Assembly (NCBI GenBank): GCA_016176505.1
Contig: JACOXB010000009.1
Coordinates: 1 to 33,799, forward strand
Reading direction: 5' to 3'
Origin: Candidatus Colwelliibacteriota bacterium
Lineage (GTDB): Bacteria > Patescibacteriota > Minisyncoccia > UBA6257 > Colwellbacteraceae
Length of the DNA: 33,799 nucleotides
Shown here one piece after another: positions 1,917 to 22,312 of this stretch. A model generated the notes under the pieces. It did no database searches and was not told the DNA's origin. It saw only the letters and a program-made list of their open reading frames with translations. The number at the start of each line of letters is the position of its first letter. Positions within the stretch are counted from its first letter, which is position 1. The translations under genes were made by a program, and so were the position numbers.

Positions 1917-2064
1917 GCCCAGCGGATTACTGTCGTAGGGAACATCCCGCAGGCCAAAGCCGGCTTGGTCTCCGACTCAAGTCGGAGCGGCTGGCCGAGG
2001 GGGAAGAAAGTTTTGCCGCTGGAGCAAAACTATTCTGGTTCCCATAGACAGCAAGCTGCTGGGC
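1917..2064. repeat. Structured repeat, copy A, upstream of pyrG
   Basis: Aligns along its length with the reverse complement of 5079-5250; ends form an inverted repeat (GCCCAGCGGATTACTGTC / GACAGCAAGCTGCTGGGC). Confidence 0.75.
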
Positions 2065-2089
2065 GATTACACTTAAGCCGTAGTTTTTA

Positions 2090-4252: not shown

Positions 4253-5077
4253 ATGATTATCCTGCTCTATGGCCTGGATTCCTATCGGCGCCTGAAAAAG
4301 TTAGCCGAGATTACCGAAGCCTATCGTTCTAAATACACCGGTCTTTCTCACGAGAGATTTGATTTGGCCGAAGAAGGGTCTTTCCCTAAATTTCTTGATT
4401 TTGTCACTAGTCGCTCGATGTTTGACCCGGTGAAATTAGTGGTGCTTGATAATATCATCGCAAGCGATGCGCCGAATGAGTTAAAAGAAATTTTAAAAAC
4501 CTACGCCGAAATAAAAGACACAACCGTTGTTGTTAATTCGGAGACGAAACCGCCGGTTAAGTTTAAATTTTTGTTTGAAGAGCCGGTTCAGGTCCAGGAA
4601 TTTCCAGCGCCGAAAGAAGAGGGCCTTGATAGCTTTATTAAAAAAACTGCGAGCGCTCACGAGCTAAAACTTGATGAGGCAACCGTGGCCCACTTGGCTG
4701 CTGCTTTTGGCAGCGATACTTGGGCTTTGGCGACCGAGATTGAGCGCTTGGCTTTGGCTTCGAATGGTGCCGGCACTCCAACTAAAACCAAAGATTTAAT
4801 TGAGAAGAAACCAACTCGGGAATATTATCCCTTAATTAATTCGGTTAAGTGGGGCCGGAGCCGCAAAGAAAGGCTAGTGGCTCTGGAACGGATTTTGTCC
4901 GAGCGGCGGGATGAGCCAGCCCGGGTTTTTAATACTTTAGCTTATCGCTTGAAAGATGAAAAAGAAGCCAAGCTTTTTGCTGACTATGACGTGGCGGTAA
5001 AGTCAGGCAAACTTGAATACGAAGAAATTCTCCTCGACCTCGCCCTTGGTCCAGATTACTTCGAGTTAGGATTTTAG
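4253..5077 (+). CDS. holA: DNA polymerase III delta subunit
   Basis: MIILLYGLDSYRRLKKLAEI...; delta-like N-terminus and C-terminal helical region; convergent with rpsT. Confidence 0.85.
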   Translation: MIILLYGLDSYRRLKKLAEITEAYRSKYTGLSHERFDLAEEGSFPKFLDFVTSRSMFDPVKLVVLDNIIASDAPNELKEILKTYAEIKDTTVVVNSETKPPVKFKFLFEEPVQVQEFPAPKEEGLDSFIKKTASAHELKLDEATVAHLAAAFGSDTWALATEIERLALASNGAGTPTKTKDLIEKKPTREYYPLINSVKWGRSRKERLVALERILSERRDEPARVFNTLAYRLKDEKEAKLFADYDVAVKSGKLEYEEILLDLALGPDYFELGF

Positions 5078-5078
5078 G

Positions 5079-5250
5079 GCGCCCGCCAACTTATTGCCTA
5101 TCGGGACCAGAATAATCCGGCTCCAGCGGCCGGATTTTCTTCTCCCTCGGCCTGCTCGCTCCGACTTAAGTCGGACACCAAGCCGAGCTAGGCCTGCGGG
5201 ATGTCCCGTACGGCAGCAAGTTAGTGTAGGCAGTAAGTTGGTGGGCGTCG
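5079..5250. repeat. Structured repeat, copy B, between holA and rpsT
   Basis: Near-terminal inverted repeat cgcccgccaacttattgcc / ggcagtaagttggtgggcg; reverse complement aligns with copy A (1917-2064). Confidence 0.75.
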
Positions 5251-5555: not shown

Positions 5556-5593
5556 AAAAATAGTTTGGGGGAGGGCGCGGAGCACCCTCCCCC
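5556..5593 (-). terminator. Terminator of GC-rich cassette 2
   Basis: Minus strand GGGGGAGGG-tgctccgcg-CCCTCCCCC-AAACTATTTTTA. Confidence 0.85.
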
Positions 5594-5610
5594 ACTGTGC
5601 CCGCCGCGAT

Positions 5611-5724
5611 CTATGTGAACCTGATCACGGTGAACATGATGATCACGAGCGCGGCTGCCATCGCGAGGGCCAGCCAGCCTAGGGGACCAAGGCTGTCGAG
5701 GTCTGAAAGATCACGACGAGCCAT
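5611..5724 (-). CDS. 37-aa single-TM microprotein (cassette 2)
   Basis: GAGGAGGGAGCG-ATG; MARRDLSDLDSLGPLGWLALAMAAALVIIMFTVIRFT. Not in supplied track. Confidence 0.65.
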   Translation of the reverse strand: MARRDLSDLDSLGPLGWLALAMAAALVIIMFTVIRFT

Positions 5725-5734
5725 CGCTCCCTCC

Positions 5735-5872
5735 TCAGCTGTAGCGGAGGCCGCGGCCGCGCCTACCGCGACGACGGTCCCGGTAAGCCTTCCGCCGGCG
5801 CTCCTTCTCGCCGAACGGGTTCTCGACCGGTTGCCCGTTGCCGTTTTTCCGCTTGTTATTCTTCTTACCCAC
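5735..5872 (-). CDS. 45-aa highly basic microprotein (cassette 2)
   Basis: AGGAGGGGATCT-GTG; MGKKNNKRKNGNGQPVENPFGEKERRRKAYRDRRRGRRGRGLRYS. Not in supplied track. Confidence 0.6.
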   Translation of the reverse strand: MGKKNNKRKNGNGQPVENPFGEKERRRKAYRDRRRGRRGRGLRYS

Positions 5873-5937
5873 AGATCCCCTCCTACTGGGGCTACCGACT
5901 ACCGCCTTGCGCTTGCCGGGCGCGTCTCTCCTCCTCC

Positions 5938-6132
5938 CTAAACGCCGTAGCCTTTCTCGCGGGCTTCGAGGCCCGGGACGGGACGGCCTCTCCTCTCCTT
6001 GGCCTCGAGTGCCTCGATCAACTTCTCGATCTCGTCCAGAACGCGAGCGGCGTCGGGGTCGGGGGCGCGGCGCAACAGGTTGCGGATCGTATACCGCGCC
6101 GCCCTAAGCGCCTCGAGTGGTGGTAGCAACAT
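5938..6132 (-). CDS. 64-aa helical hypothetical protein (cassette 2)
   Basis: GGAGAGGAGGCATCTAAG-ATG; MLLPPLEALRAARYTIRNLLRRAPDPDAARVLDEIEKLIEALEAKERRG... Confidence 0.7.
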   Translation of the reverse strand: MLLPPLEALRAARYTIRNLLRRAPDPDAARVLDEIEKLIEALEAKERRGRPVPGLEAREKGYGV

Positions 6133-6152
6133 CTTAGATGCCTCCTCTCCTT

Positions 6153-6509
6153 TTAGCCGGACCAGAAGCTCTCGTTCGGATCGAACGGCAGGACGAAGAC
6201 CTTTACCAGCTTGGCGTTGGGGAAGGCTTCCCGGACGGCTGTTCCGACCGCTGCCGCGACCCGCAGCCGTACTTCCCTTGTTCGAGCTGGGTAGGCGAAG
6301 AGGTCGTCGATTTCGACGATCATATCGCCGAGCGGCCTCGCCTTATCTAGGTCGCGGACGTCTAGCGGGAAGGCGACCGTGACTTGGCGCTCATCAAGGC
6401 CAAGCTCCTCGATCCCGACCACGGCCTTTTTGATCTCGATTTCCACTCCGTCGAGATCGACGAAGTTCTGACCGTAGTGCCGCGTTCCCCAGACTTTAAT
6501 GAACGGCAT
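6153..6509 (-). CDS. 118-aa hypothetical protein, possibly tautomerase-like (cassette 2)
   Basis: MPFIKVWGTRHYGQNFVDLDGVEIEIKKAVVG...; preceded by GGGGGGAG. Fold assignment tentative. Confidence 0.7.
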   Translation of the reverse strand: MPFIKVWGTRHYGQNFVDLDGVEIEIKKAVVGIEELGLDERQVTVAFPLDVRDLDKARPLGDMIVEIDDLFAYPARTREVRLRVAAAVGTAVREAFPNAKLVKVFVLPFDPNESFWSG

Positions 6510-6586
6510 TTACTCCCCCCTTTCAGTCGGACAGGTTGTATGAACTTCTCAAGTTACTAGTTGTTGATTGCTCAACAAACTTCTTA

Positions 6587-6726: not shown

Positions 6727-7140
6727 CTATATATTTTCGTAGTGCTTAATAACGAAATCTTTTAGAGAATCTGTCAACCCACCACTACCTATATTCATAG
6801 ATGTGGGGGTATGCCCCGGATTGAAACTGATAGCGATTAGATCGATTCGCCAACCCTTATTGTCTTTCACCAGCTGGGGATGTTGGCCAGTATAAAGCGA
6901 GGCGGTTCGCTCTAGGATTTTTAGCTTTGACTTAGTCAGATGTTCTTCAGGAGTAATCCCCAAGCCCTTCACAGCTTTTACCTCTACAAAAACCAGGGTT
7001 TTATCAGGGGATCTTGCAATAATGTCGATCTCTCCCCATGGTTGGCGGTAATTTCGCTCAAGAATCTTATATCTTTGGCGTTTCAGATAGTCTGTAGCCA
7101 GGTTTTCCCCAATTTTTCCCAGTTCAGATCGGTGGGGCAT
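6727..7140 (-). CDS. UPF0102/YraN family endonuclease-like protein
   Basis: GKIGENLATDYLKRQRYKILERNYRQPWGEIDIIARSPDKTLVFVEVKA is the YraN core signature. Confidence 0.92.
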   Translation of the reverse strand: MPHRSELGKIGENLATDYLKRQRYKILERNYRQPWGEIDIIARSPDKTLVFVEVKAVKGLGITPEEHLTKSKLKILERTASLYTGQHPQLVKDNKGWRIDLIAISFNPGHTPTSMNIGSGGLTDSLKDFVIKHYENI

Positions 7141-7147
7141 TACTAAA

Positions 7148-7183
7148 ATTGTACACGATGTTTACCGGCAAACACGGTGTACA
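7148..7183 (-). promoter_or_regulatory. yraN-family gene promoter overlapped by an inverted repeat
   Basis: Minus -10 TACAAT (7148-7153) 7 nt before ATG; TGTACACGATGTTT-accggc-AAACACGGTGTACA overlaps it. Confidence 0.45.
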
Positions 7184-7417
7184 GTGTTCCACCGTGACAC
7201 ACTGCGTATTTTTCCCGGTTTTTAGGCCTCATTATGTTGAACAGTTATACACAAATGTTTCACAATTTACACACATATCGATGAAGTTGTCAAAAATCTA
7301 GCATTCATCGCATTATTGATTAATGCGATGTTCTCAATGTTTCACAAAATGTTTCACAAAATTCGAAAAACCTAGGTTTTATCGCGTTAATGATTCGTGC
7401 GATAAAATCGTGGTTTT

Positions 7418-7450
7418 ATAAAAATACTGAACCCCACCGAAGTGGGGGTT
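7418..7450 (-). terminator. Intrinsic terminator of the candidate ncRNA
   Basis: Minus strand AACCCCCAC-TTCG-GTGGGGTT-CAGTATTTTTATAAAA. Confidence 0.85.
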
Positions 7451-7875
7451 TTGGGGCGGCGGGCGGAGCTGCTTGGAAGCTTCGCCCGCCGCCGCTGTAT
7501 CTTCTCGGCGCCTCTATTTTAGCGCCGGGTACCGTCGGGGACTGCCGTCCCCCCGGACCTCTTGATCGCCGTCGAAGTACTGCAGCGGGGAAAAACAGGC
7601 GACGTCGGTTTTTGTGAACCGTCTAGGAAGTCGCCTGCCGCGAGCGGCGCGTCGCGGTCCCCCGCTCCTTGCGTCTTTTAAGCGCCGCCGTATCAGGAAA
7701 TCGTCGGCTCCCAGCAACCGTCCCGGTTGACGCACCCTCCGGACAGGAGGATCTAAACAGTCTAGGCGCTCGAGCCGGGCACTCGAGTGCGCGCCATCTG
7801 GGCAGTGGGGGTAACAGGGACGCTGTCGCGGCCCATGTCTCGTGGCTCACGGCATAACCCCCGCCACGATCAATA
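7418..7875 (-). ncRNA. Candidate structured non-coding RNA of about 450 nt, family not recognised
   Basis: Consensus promoter upstream, UUCG-capped terminator, many long GC helices, and ORFs inside are Arg/Pro-rich without a well-spaced SD. Confidence 0.65.
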
Positions 7876-7908: not shown

Positions 7909-7941
7909 CGCCATAAAATATCGAGACCGGAACTCGATAAA

Positions 7942-9105
7942 TTAAAAATTCAGTTTCAGTTTTGACGCTCCGGCTTGTTTTAAGATGTCGGATTCAAAAG
8001 TGTAAATAATTTCTTTTTTGGATTGATGTTTTTCTTCGGCCAGTTCAATCAAACGAGTCAAGAGTTCGTTGAAACTGACACCGCTTTGGCGCCAAAGATG
8101 ATGATAGAGCGTGCCGGGCAAGGTATTAATCTCGTTCGCGTAAATTGCCTTCGTTTTCTTGTTATAAAGAAAGTCAACCCGAGCGATACCAGAACATCCG
8201 AAAAGTTTAAAAATTTGGACTGCCATATCCTGAATTTTTTTCGTAGTTCTCGCATCAATCGCTGCCGGAATATTAATGCTCTTAGTGGCGCGGCCGAGTT
8301 GAGCTCCGCCTTTTTTCAAGTACTTTTCTTCGTAAGAAAATAAATCGCCTTCGAAGCTTGAATCCTGAATTAAAGAGGGAATCGGATCGTCATTGCCAAG
8401 AACCGCGACCGTGAGATCCATAAGATCTAGAACCGCTTCTTCAACCAAAGCTCGAGTGTCATAGTGAAGTGCAACTTCAATGGCGAACTCGAGTTCCTTC
8501 AGCGTCTTTACTTTAGCCACACCGATTGAAGAGCCGAGCCGGGCCGGCTTTACAAAAAGCGGCCATTTTAAGCCCTTGATTCGCTTTAAAATCTGGGATT
8601 TATCCCTTTCCCATTCTTTTTTAGTAAAAAAAACAAATTTTGTGGTTGGGAATTTAGCTGCTTCATAAATCTGCTTGGTCAGGATTTTATCCATAGTCAC
8701 GGCTGACGAGGTCACATCGCAGCCAACATAAGGAACATTGAAAATTTCAAAAAGTCCTTGAATCGTTCCATCCTCGCCATAAGAGCCGTGAAAAGCCGGA
8801 AAAGCAAGGTCGATTGCAATTTCTTTTTTACTAAACCCCTTTTTCTTGAAAGCCAGTTTGCCTAAAGATTTTTCAAGATCAAGAATAAAATCATTTAAAC
8901 CGCGCGGCTCAATCTTACTACCGGCTTTTTGGAAAAATTCAAGTGAGCCAAGCCTTTCATCAATTAGCCAGCGACCTTGTTTATCTAGGTAAATCGGGAA
9001 AACTTGATGCCCTAGTTTTTTTAAGCCGGCAATAATTAATTCGCCAGTTAAAATCGAGACATCATGTTCTGGGCTGCGGCTGCCAAAAAATACTCCAATG
9101 TTCAT
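7942..9105 (-). CDS. ddl: D-alanine--D-alanine ligase
   Basis: MNIGVFFGSRSPEHDVSILTG...; HGSYGEDGTIQG; EINTLPGTL. Confidence 0.95.
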   Translation of the reverse strand: MNIGVFFGSRSPEHDVSILTGELIIAGLKKLGHQVFPIYLDKQGRWLIDERLGSLEFFQKAGSKIEPRGLNDFILDLEKSLGKLAFKKKGFSKKEIAIDLAFPAFHGSYGEDGTIQGLFEIFNVPYVGCDVTSSAVTMDKILTKQIYEAAKFPTTKFVFFTKKEWERDKSQILKRIKGLKWPLFVKPARLGSSIGVAKVKTLKELEFAIEVALHYDTRALVEEAVLDLMDLTVAVLGNDDPIPSLIQDSSFEGDLFSYEEKYLKKGGAQLGRATKSINIPAAIDARTTKKIQDMAVQIFKLFGCSGIARVDFLYNKKTKAIYANEINTLPGTLYHHLWRQSGVSFNELLTRLIELAEEKHQSKKEIIYTFESDILKQAGASKLKLNF

Positions 9106-11374: not shown

Positions 11375-11394
11375 GCGCCCGCGCCGGGGGGTGG

Positions 11395-11886
11395 CTAGCT
11401 CGCCACCCGTTTGTAGAGCCAGAACGGCATGAGCTTGAGGACGCGCTCGCGCCTATTCCAGGTCTTCTCGGACCGCGTCCGTTGCTGGGTTGAATCAGCA
11501 GAGAACCAGCCGTTCCACGGATACAACTCGATCTCCGGACATGGCCTGACGTGGATTCCGCCACCAGCTTCGCGGACAGCCTTGCGAAGGTCGCGCCAGG
11601 CGCGCCAGAGATGCGGTGCGGCAGCCGCCACCCAGAGCTCGGTGAGGCCACGCTGCTTTGCCCAGCCGACAGCACCCCTTGCGATCCGGAGAGTTGTCGG
11701 CGGCTCACCGGGTTTCTCGTCGGCGTACGTCACCTCGACACCACTTTCTATATGGATATCGAGCTGGGTGTAGATCGGAGCCTTGAGACCCCACGCTTCC
11801 CCCGTGGCGATCTGGCCGATCAGCTGGTTTGAGCGGATGGAACTCGGAGCGCCGAAGGCAAACGCGACAATGCCTACAGTCCCCAA
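11395..11886 (-). CDS. 163-aa hypothetical protein (cassette 4)
   Basis: TTG start with GAGGAGGTGA SD; MGTVGIVAFAFGAPSSIRSNQLIGQIATGEAWG... Confidence 0.75.
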   Translation of the reverse strand: MGTVGIVAFAFGAPSSIRSNQLIGQIATGEAWGLKAPIYTQLDIHIESGVEVTYADEKPGEPPTTLRIARGAVGWAKQRGLTELWVAAAAPHLWRAWRDLRKAVREAGGGIHVRPCPEIELYPWNGWFSADSTQQRTRSEKTWNRRERVLKLMPFWLYKRVAS

Positions 11887-12005
11887 AACAGTTCACCTCC
11901 TCGGGTGACATTCGGTTGTGGAGTACTACGCGCCTAAAGGCACATTTTCAGAATGCGATGAATTCTTGGGTTAGTCAATGCCCTTCGACAAGCTCAGGAC
12001 GAGTG

Positions 12006-20443: not shown

Positions 20444-20791
20444 CAGATGTGGAGAATTAAATATCACCTTTCGAAATTAGCTGTTTTGCCCGCTGTGGCG
20501 CTGGCCGCGACCGATTTTGAAGAACCTCCGGCTCCAGTCACTGGACCAAGTGACATTGTAGATATAATCGAAACCGTGGCTGGGTGGATGTTCGGCATTC
20601 TTATTGCCTTGGCCGTCGTTTTCCTTCTCTACGCCGCATTCCTTTACCTAATGTCAGCTGGCGATCAGACTAAAACTGCCAAAGCTAAAAACGTCCTGAT
20701 TTATGCCATTTGGGCTTTAGTGATTGCGGTTCTAGCCGGTGGCGTGGCGGTCTTTGTTAAAGACTTCCTCCTCAAGCAGCCCCGCTCTTAA
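20444..20791 (+). CDS. TrbC/VirB2-like small membrane protein 3
   Basis: Start re-assigned to MWRIKYHLSK; LYAAFLYLMSAGDQTKTAKAKNVLIYAIWALVIAVLAGG. Confidence 0.7.
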   Translation, partial: QMWRIKYHLSKLAVLPAVALAATDFEEPPAPVTGPSDIVDIIETVAGWMFGILIALAVVFLLYAAFLYLMSAGDQTKTAKAKNVLIYAIWALVIAVLAGGVAVFVKDFLLKQPRS

Positions 20792-20809
20792 AGCGCAGCG
20801 ATTCTAAAT

Positions 20810-20848
20810 AAAAAAACGTGAAGGGCCTTGTCTTGCGACAAGGCCCTT
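20810..20848 (-). terminator. Terminator of GC-rich cassette 5
   Basis: Minus strand AAGGGCCTTGTC-GCAA-GACAAGGCCCTT-CACGTTTTTTT; may also stop the plus-strand operon. Confidence 0.9.
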
Positions 20849-20870
20849 TGCGTCTCACCCCCCTTCTTCT

Positions 20871-21326
20871 TTACTGCGGACAAGTTCTGCCCTCGGCGCC
20901 CATGGTGTTCGCCAAGGTGCCGGGTGGGTAGATCCAGAGCTTGACCGTTTCGCCAGCTGGGCCGGCGAACCGGAGCTGGCCTCTCACGACTCCCAACCAG
21001 TCGTTGATGGAGCATCGAGCTCCACCAGCGAGCCTGACCAGGGTCTGGTCTGGGCCCTGGAGAGCGAAGTCCCAGTTGTATGGAACGTTCTCCCCGATCG
21101 AGACCGGTCGGCTCCACTGGTCGAAGCCGCGGAGCTCGACCGTGGCTTTCAGCTCGCCCTCGGTTTCTTCCGCCGCTTCGGCTCGCGTCCCCTTGGGGAG
21201 CTTGTCAGCGTACATCGCGAGGCCGATCGCGGCGGGGATGAGGGCAAGAACGACCACCCACTTCCACGCCTTCTTCGGCACGGACCCGAGTGTCGTCTCG
21301 GGCCTCTTCTCGGTATCAGCCGCCAT
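20871..21326 (-). CDS. Single-TM hypothetical protein (cassette 5)
   Basis: Start re-assigned to MAADTEKRPETTLG after GGAGGAGGTGG; one TM then an extracytoplasmic domain; TGATG overlap with upstream SPFH gene. Confidence 0.75.
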   Translation of the reverse strand: MAADTEKRPETTLGSVPKKAWKWVVVLALIPAAIGLAMYADKLPKGTRAEAAEETEGELKATVELRGFDQWSRPVSIGENVPYNWDFALQGPDQTLVRLAGGARCSINDWLGVVRGQLRFAGPAGETVKLWIYPPGTLANTMGAEGRTCPQ

Positions 21327-22312
21327 CAGATCCACCTCCTCCACCACGGTCTCCTCATCGGTCGGCCACCGCGGCCACCCAAGACGCTACCAACGATACC
21401 GGTGATCATATCCCTCGTTTCCGGAGACACGTTCAACCGGTTCTCGCTGATGGTCTGGATGATCTTCTTGCGCTCTGTCTGGATGATGCGCATGGCCTCT
21501 TCGTTCGAGAAGCCACGCGCATTGAGGGCGGCCACCCTAGCTGCGATGTGTTCGAGCTCGATGGTCTCGGCCGCTCGCTCCCGTTCCTCGATGGCCGCCT
21601 TCTCGGCGGCCTCGGCGAGTGCCCCCAGGACTTTCATCTCACCGACGTTCACTCGGTTGATGACGACCCCGAGAGCAACGCTCGCGAGCGTCCCGTTTCC
21701 GGCCCTCATCAGAGCGATTTCGGCCGGATCGAGTGGCGTCAGGACATCTCGTCCCGACAGAGTGTTGATCACGATCTGGAGCGCCTCGCCTCTAGCCCGG
21801 AGCGCCTCTTCCCAGTTCTGTGGGCCGTAGGCTCGGGTGATAGCCCACTCACGGATCGCCTCGCCGACGGCATCGGTGAGGATGTTATTGACCCCACTCT
21901 CACCGCCAGAGTTCAAGTAGGCGATGAGGTTACTCGGCGTGTAGGTCACCGAGACCGGCACGCTGAGCTCGGCGAGGTCTGGGGTTCGAACATCCTCAGG
22001 CGCGAGGTCCAAGTTCTTCCGGACCACGTTCACGAGGATGACCCCGTACACCCAGGGGAAGAACGGCAGGAATCGCCACCCTTCCTCAAGGACGATGTTC
22101 TGCCTTCGACCGAGGAACGTCAGCGCTCCTCGATGCGGCGGGTCGGCTGGGATTTTCTTCAGCCCCTGAAGGACGTAGAGTCCGGTCAGGAGCAGAAGGG
22201 TCGAGATCCCGAACCAGAGGTTCCGACTCCAAGCCCCGGCATTCAGGGCGAGGAGAACGATGATTGCTCCGGTAACCGTGTTAACCATCCCTCTTCTCGT
22301 CACTTCAGTCAC
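21326..22312 (-). CDS. SPFH/Band 7 (prohibitin-like) membrane protein (cassette 5)
   Basis: Two N-terminal TM segments, ...GLKKIPADPPHRGALTFLGRRQNIVLEEGWRFLPFFPW...; Glu/Ala coiled coil EAAEKAAIEERERAAETIELEHIAARVAAL. Start may be 22303. Confidence 0.82.
   Translation of the reverse strand: MTEVTRRGMVNTVTGAIIVLLALNAGAWSRNLWFGISTLLLLTGLYVLQGLKKIPADPPHRGALTFLGRRQNIVLEEGWRFLPFFPWVYGVILVNVVRKNLDLAPEDVRTPDLAELSVPVSVTYTPSNLIAYLNSGGESGVNNILTDAVGEAIREWAITRAYGPQNWEEALRARGEALQIVINTLSGRDVLTPLDPAEIALMRAGNGTLASVALGVVINRVNVGEMKVLGALAEAAEKAAIEERERAAETIELEHIAARVAALNARGFSNEEAMRIIQTERKKIIQTISENRLNVSPETRDMITGIVGSVLGGRGGRPMRRPWWRRWI

Follow-up and report, generated by a model that had tools for sequence, protein, structure and literature searches.

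A candidate gene for a structured non-coding RNA of ~440 nt, with no detectable relatives, in a Colwelliibacteriota genome

Several bacterial RNAs that are long, highly structured, and not thought to be protein-coding, namely ROOL, GOLLD, and OLE, have been recognized by comparative genomics (see PMC12286853). A minus-strand locus in the window (the whole 33,799-nt stretch of DNA analyzed here, contig C16 of a Candidatus Colwelliibacteriota genome) resembles them in that its putative product is likewise long, highly structured, and apparently non-coding; it differs in that the candidate RNA is shorter (~440 nt), with no Rfam match at E ≤ 10, no relatives, and no match in phages or plasmids. 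The host genome comprises 466 kb in 18 contigs and is estimated to be 97% complete. By computation, the locus has a promoter, no coding signature, an excess of folding stability, a single copy, and no counterpart in Rfam. An earlier note had singled it out from the sequence as a highly structured RNA that could be either a very divergent housekeeping RNA or a new class.

Two housekeeping RNAs come close to it in size. RNase P RNA class A (RF00010) is of similar length and also strongly folded, but the candidate RNA has no match to that family. tmRNA (RF00023) is of similar length as well, and the candidate shares with it the string TTCGACGG; however, no tRNA-like domain was found in the candidate stretch by ARAGORN. 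Since an Rfam scan of the stretch returned nothing relevant even at the relaxed threshold of E ≤ 10, the structured RNA of the earlier note stands as a candidate outside Rfam. A genome-wide Rfam scan, covering the host genome except ~7.6 kb at three contig ends, detected tRNAs, rRNAs, tmRNA, and RNase P RNA, confirming the presence elsewhere in the genome of a true rnpB (C9:64439-64829, 104.6 bits) and a true ssrA (C15:42344-42660, 129.8 bits). With these genes located, and with neither RNase P RNA nor RF00023 matched in the candidate stretch at E ≤ 10, a divergent rnpB and a divergent ssrA are both ruled out. Over the same portion of the genome, the scan found no SRP RNA and no 6S RNA. SRP RNA (RF00169) also had no match in the 27 family genomes searched, and the SRP54 domain common to Ffh and FtsY was not found in the 97%-complete host genome, although the control search detected it in 14 of 14 genomes. 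From these results, the lineage seems to have lost the signal recognition particle pathway. Because neither SRP RNA nor an SRP54-domain protein was found, SRP RNA is removed as a candidate identity, and it is ruled out as well by the stretch having no match to its families at E ≤ 10. With rnpB and ssrA present elsewhere and SRP seemingly missing, the proposal of a very divergent housekeeping RNA is disfavored.

The consensus promoter claimed for the minus strand proved exact in a sequence scan: a perfect -35 hexamer TTGACA (7908-7903) and a perfect -10 hexamer TATAAT (7886-7881) are separated by a 16-nt spacer, a geometry that would place the transcription start near position 7874. Seven perfect TTGACA-N15-19-TATAAT promoters occur in the 459 kb of host genome scanned, another of which directly precedes a 23S rRNA gene, and the GC content following the candidate RNA promoter is the highest among stretches behind perfect promoters in the host genome and its relatives. 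At the opposite end, the UUCG-capped terminator described in the earlier note is borne out as a hairpin (CCCCAC-TTCG-GTGGGG, 7447-7432, minus strand) but not as a textbook terminator: the stem is followed by TTCAGTATTTTT, in which the T-run begins ~7 nt past the stem, only after TTCAGTA, and the hairpin is not listed by a standard intrinsic-terminator scan. The body of the candidate non-coding RNA, supported by its fold z-score, lack of a coding signature, and lack of an Rfam match, would extend from about 7874 to 7432 on the minus strand (~440 nt, 64% GC).

Both flanking genes lie on the same strand. Upstream is the D-Ala-D-Ala ligase gene ddl (7942-9105; PF07478/PF01820), whose transcript is closed by a terminator-like hairpin (7919-7939) that the standard scan does list; downstream is yraN (UPF0102; 6727-7140; PF02021), preceded by a separate promoter-like site, TTGACA-N18-TAAATT (7293-7264), found by promoter scan. 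Given this hairpin and this separate site, the RNA locus looks like an independent transcription unit of its own, with an uncertain 3′ end. It is present in single copy, and a repeat or mobile copy is ruled out because a search of the genome gave just self-matches and weak chance matches.

In several members of the family, a perfect promoter likewise stands before the 23S rRNA gene, with a short leader containing a GC-rich terminator-like hairpin and T-run ahead of the rRNA (C1:1981 in L167, and L216, L213, L169, L198, L217, L218, L184, and L186; the downstream rRNA is confirmed in L167, L169, and L216 only).

The whole stretch is predicted to fold at -215 to -218 kcal/mol, with z-scores of -4.2 (100 shuffles) and -5.2 (60 shuffles) and no shuffled sequence equally stable; the same-genome controls tmRNA and rnpB score -4.8 and -4.4, respectively, versus -5.2 for the candidate RNA. 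An 11-bp hairpin at 7493-7455 contributes much of the excess stability, and when pieces of 120 nt are folded singly, most are not significant and the piece holding this 3′ hairpin dominates. Strong folding is also common in this genome, with many of the 160 host intergenic gaps that are 250 nt or longer at z -4 to -10 and some of the 12 GC-rich orphan coding sequences tested at z -3 to -5, so folding alone is no proof of an RNA gene.

In the predicted structure, a 5′ multibranch domain (7811-7710, minus strand, as are all elements that follow) has helix probabilities mostly of 0.8-1.0, the outermost CCC/GGG helix being at 0.39; its closing helices, CCC/GGG and ACTG/CGGT, enclose TGGCGC/GCGTCA and the hairpins CTCGAGT/GCTCGAG, CTAGA/TTTAG, and ATCCTCC/GGAGGGT. 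A central domain (7666-7584; helix probabilities 0.95-1.0), in which AGCGGGGGA/TTCCCCGCT closes the two arms CCGCGA/TCGCGG and CAGGCGAC/GTCGCCTG, is followed by the hairpin pair GGGGAC/GTCCCC and CGGCGCT/GGCGCCG (7559-7506; 0.98-1.0) and by the long 3′ hairpin GGCGGCGGGCG/CGCCCGCCGCC (7493-7455; 1.0), which is also terminator-like when read on the plus strand. The helices that had been picked out by eye are all present as complementary strings, and most have ensemble probabilities above 0.9, but two fall outside the predicted ensemble: CAACC/GGTTG (as CAACCG/CGGTTG) and GGGGGT/ACCCCC, each with a probability of 0.01. In this model, the latter would be possible solely as a pseudoknot or an alternative pairing.

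A different structured sequence is dispersed through the genome as a repeat of ~150-190 nt, with eight copies that are 79-98% identical and one deletion derivative. Two copies lie in the window (5075-5223, plus strand, and 1927-2065, minus strand) and the others at C13:31147, C15:40446, C15:48023, C9:70248, C9:8953, and C9:67111, with the deletion form near C9:8062. Compensatory changes occur at 11 of 45 consensus pairs, the fold z-score is about -8, and the repeat has no Rfam family and is absent from the other loci examined. It may be a structured element of a new type, mobile or regulatory.

Searches for relatives of the candidate RNA gave no homolog. BLASTN against 101 relatives produced only chance-level matches, and against 384 genomes of the class it found no relative, the best match being 38 bits over 23 nt. 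A covariance model (R1; 161 positions and 47 pairs, covering the central domain and 3′ part), run against 244 genomes of the order and the other loci examined, recovered just the sequence itself; built from this single sequence, the model is weak, and its result shows the absence of close relatives rather than of all relatives. No genome of the same genus turned up in any search, and synteny followed through ddl and through yraN showed that the RNA is not at the equivalent place in relatives. The lack of a match in phages and plasmids led to rejection of an origin in either; of three exact strings compared with viral contigs, two were absent and the third (17 nt) occurred in five contigs. A lone sequence lacking relatives makes an orphan and not a class, so the suggestion of a new class is retained in part: the locus is a candidate RNA gene outside Rfam, but class status cannot be claimed for it.

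Comparable loci do occur in the same family. In genome G017 of genus g18 (C2:81856-82221; L182/L248), a perfect promoter is followed by ~360 nt of folded sequence with no convincing gene, a terminator, and then tRNA genes; counterparts exist in G021 (L249) and G024 (L250), the loci being 345-430 nt long and upstream of tRNA genes. The folds of the G017 and G024 sequences have z-scores of -7.6 and -9.7 against shuffles. A 3′ hairpin with the loop GAACCCCCCTTC and a linker, GCACCGAGTGGAAA, are conserved in the g18 RNA, and the hairpin is kept by paired changes; G024 and G017 share a similar hairpin and linker, but their 5′ parts are unalignable, which shows that similarity in sequence can disappear between RNAs of this sort even inside a single genus. 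Like the candidate RNA, the g18 RNA has many hairpins, a 3′ hairpin followed by a terminator, and a strong promoter (in G017), yet the two have no sequence match, model R1 does not detect the g18 RNA, and GAACCCCCCTTC and GCACCGAGTGGAAA are absent from the candidate. The g18 RNA is an independent candidate and does not show that the two belong together. In genome G001, a GC-rich stretch near ddl (L015, 3090-3485) folds with z-scores of -7.9 on the minus strand and -9.2 on the plus strand and has a promoter-like site on the strand opposite to ddl, past a cold-shock gene; not alignable to the candidate RNA, it is possibly a comparable promoter-driven structured locus. A speculative view, and a long shot, is that the candidate, the g18 RNA, and perhaps the G001 stretch represent one hidden class of structured RNAs in Colwellbacteria-family genomes, 350-450 nt long, strongly transcribed, and evolving fast, which would keep architecture rather than sequence in cells that have lost the SRP.

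Islands of small, GC-rich (~60%) orphan genes are a feature of this genome, whose overall GC content is 47%; in the window they occupy 750-1775, 5560-6530, 11390-11925, and 20790-22300, and they recur at many other places. They have clear Shine-Dalgarno sites and third-position GC of up to 0.96, and some sit behind consensus promoters.

On balance, the evidence tips modestly toward a stand-alone, single-copy gene for a non-coding RNA of ~440 nt, whose transcription and ends are deduced from the sequence. Its main competitor, rather unlikely but of some weight, is a GC-rich island between genes that does not function as an RNA, in which the remains of an orphan-gene island carry unselected hairpins and the leftover promoter of a lost gene. 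Of the ~50 GC-rich stretches in the genome, many are short islands between genes that contain small orphan ORFs, the intergenic regions are generally hairpin-rich, and no conservation was found by BLASTN in 384 class genomes or by covariance model in 244 order genomes, all of which suits such an origin; yet the promoter has been kept perfect, there is neither an ORF led by a Shine-Dalgarno site nor a decayed coding signature, and the excess of folding stability persists (z = -3.6) once the 11-bp and terminator-like hairpins at the 3′ end are removed. A small-protein gene is most improbable. It would draw on a 24-codon ORF (7836-7762) that begins 38 nt inside the transcript, or on ORFs of 73 to 75 codons, but the former has no Shine-Dalgarno site and the codon-position GC is not that of host orphan genes. 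The coding alternative that the earlier note had attached to ORFs 7514-7735 and 7623-7850 fails in the same way: GC by codon position is 0.70/0.57/0.65 and 0.61/0.74/0.66, respectively, compared with mostly ~0.65/0.43/0.76 in the orphan genes, neither ORF has a Shine-Dalgarno site (which the orphan genes mostly carry, having been picked for it), and the two longer ORFs have no Pfam match. A protein-coding reading is rejected on the codon signature and the missing Shine-Dalgarno site.

The neighborhood of yraN raises a further alternative. Three copies of a parS-like half-site, TTGTGAAACATT, were found by motif search on the minus strand between the RNA and yraN (7140-7425), one at 7254-7265 and two in tandem at 7336-7359; these are all the copies in the genome. 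Half-sites occur within 800 nt upstream of yraN in 15 of 19 family loci, with full palindromes, TGTTTCACGTGAAACA, which we take to be the ParB-binding site parS, in 8 of these (yraN-upstream clusters were noted in L262, L264, L266, L269-L272, L274, and L277). As judged from its motifs, the cluster near the candidate RNA is a degenerate copy of the family ParB-site cluster, and the cluster upstream of yraN is probably a chromosomal centromere. The candidate RNA might then be a long cis-acting leader or spacer controlling yraN or the parS-like region, for instance an attenuator with read-through into yraN, as its strand, its imperfect terminator, and the conservation of the cluster in the family would allow; this is improbable, since yraN has its own promoter-like site and most relatives with the parS-yraN unit have no comparable GC-rich stretch ahead of it, several having a divergent ORF instead. 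That distribution implies that the RNA is an addition beside the probable centromere and not part of the conserved unit. Another alternative is a very divergent member of a known housekeeping family; the most plausible such family would be 6S, whose RNA binds RNA polymerase, because no 6S RNA was found in the host genome. That gap and the strong promoter speak for it, but 6S RNA is usually about half the size of the candidate and shaped as a rod with a central bubble, whereas the candidate has a multibranch fold in place of a single long bulged rod; together with the lack of a match at E ≤ 10 and the RNase P RNA and tmRNA accounted for elsewhere, this makes a 6S-like identity very unlikely.

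In genus g10, an array of TCCGGAAA/TCCGGCAA motifs lies ahead of the parS cluster that stands upstream of yraN.

For a stand-alone RNA gene, we infer transcription, exact ends, and the whole mechanism as follows. The consensus sigma-70 promoter would drive constitutive transcription of an RNA that is lineage-specific or diverged beyond recognition, and the transcript is predicted to form a multibranch domain toward its 5′ end, a central domain with two arms, and a series of stable hairpins toward its 3′ end. Since the prediction leaves almost no part of the RNA unpaired, and no long free antisense region, it would most likely act in trans, as a scaffold or protein-binding RNA; a role as guide or messenger would be less likely.

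The candidate RNA is a new orphan of a known kind, the large structured bacterial RNA, and its locus offers a precise target for inspection of metatranscriptomes. In the g18 RNA, similarity of the 5′ part is lost between species while the locus and 3′ hairpin persist, suggesting that large RNAs of Patescibacteria may escape surveys based on homology. If transcribed, the candidate would represent an abundant orphan RNA in a genome of less than 0.5 Mb, where few dispensable genes are expected.
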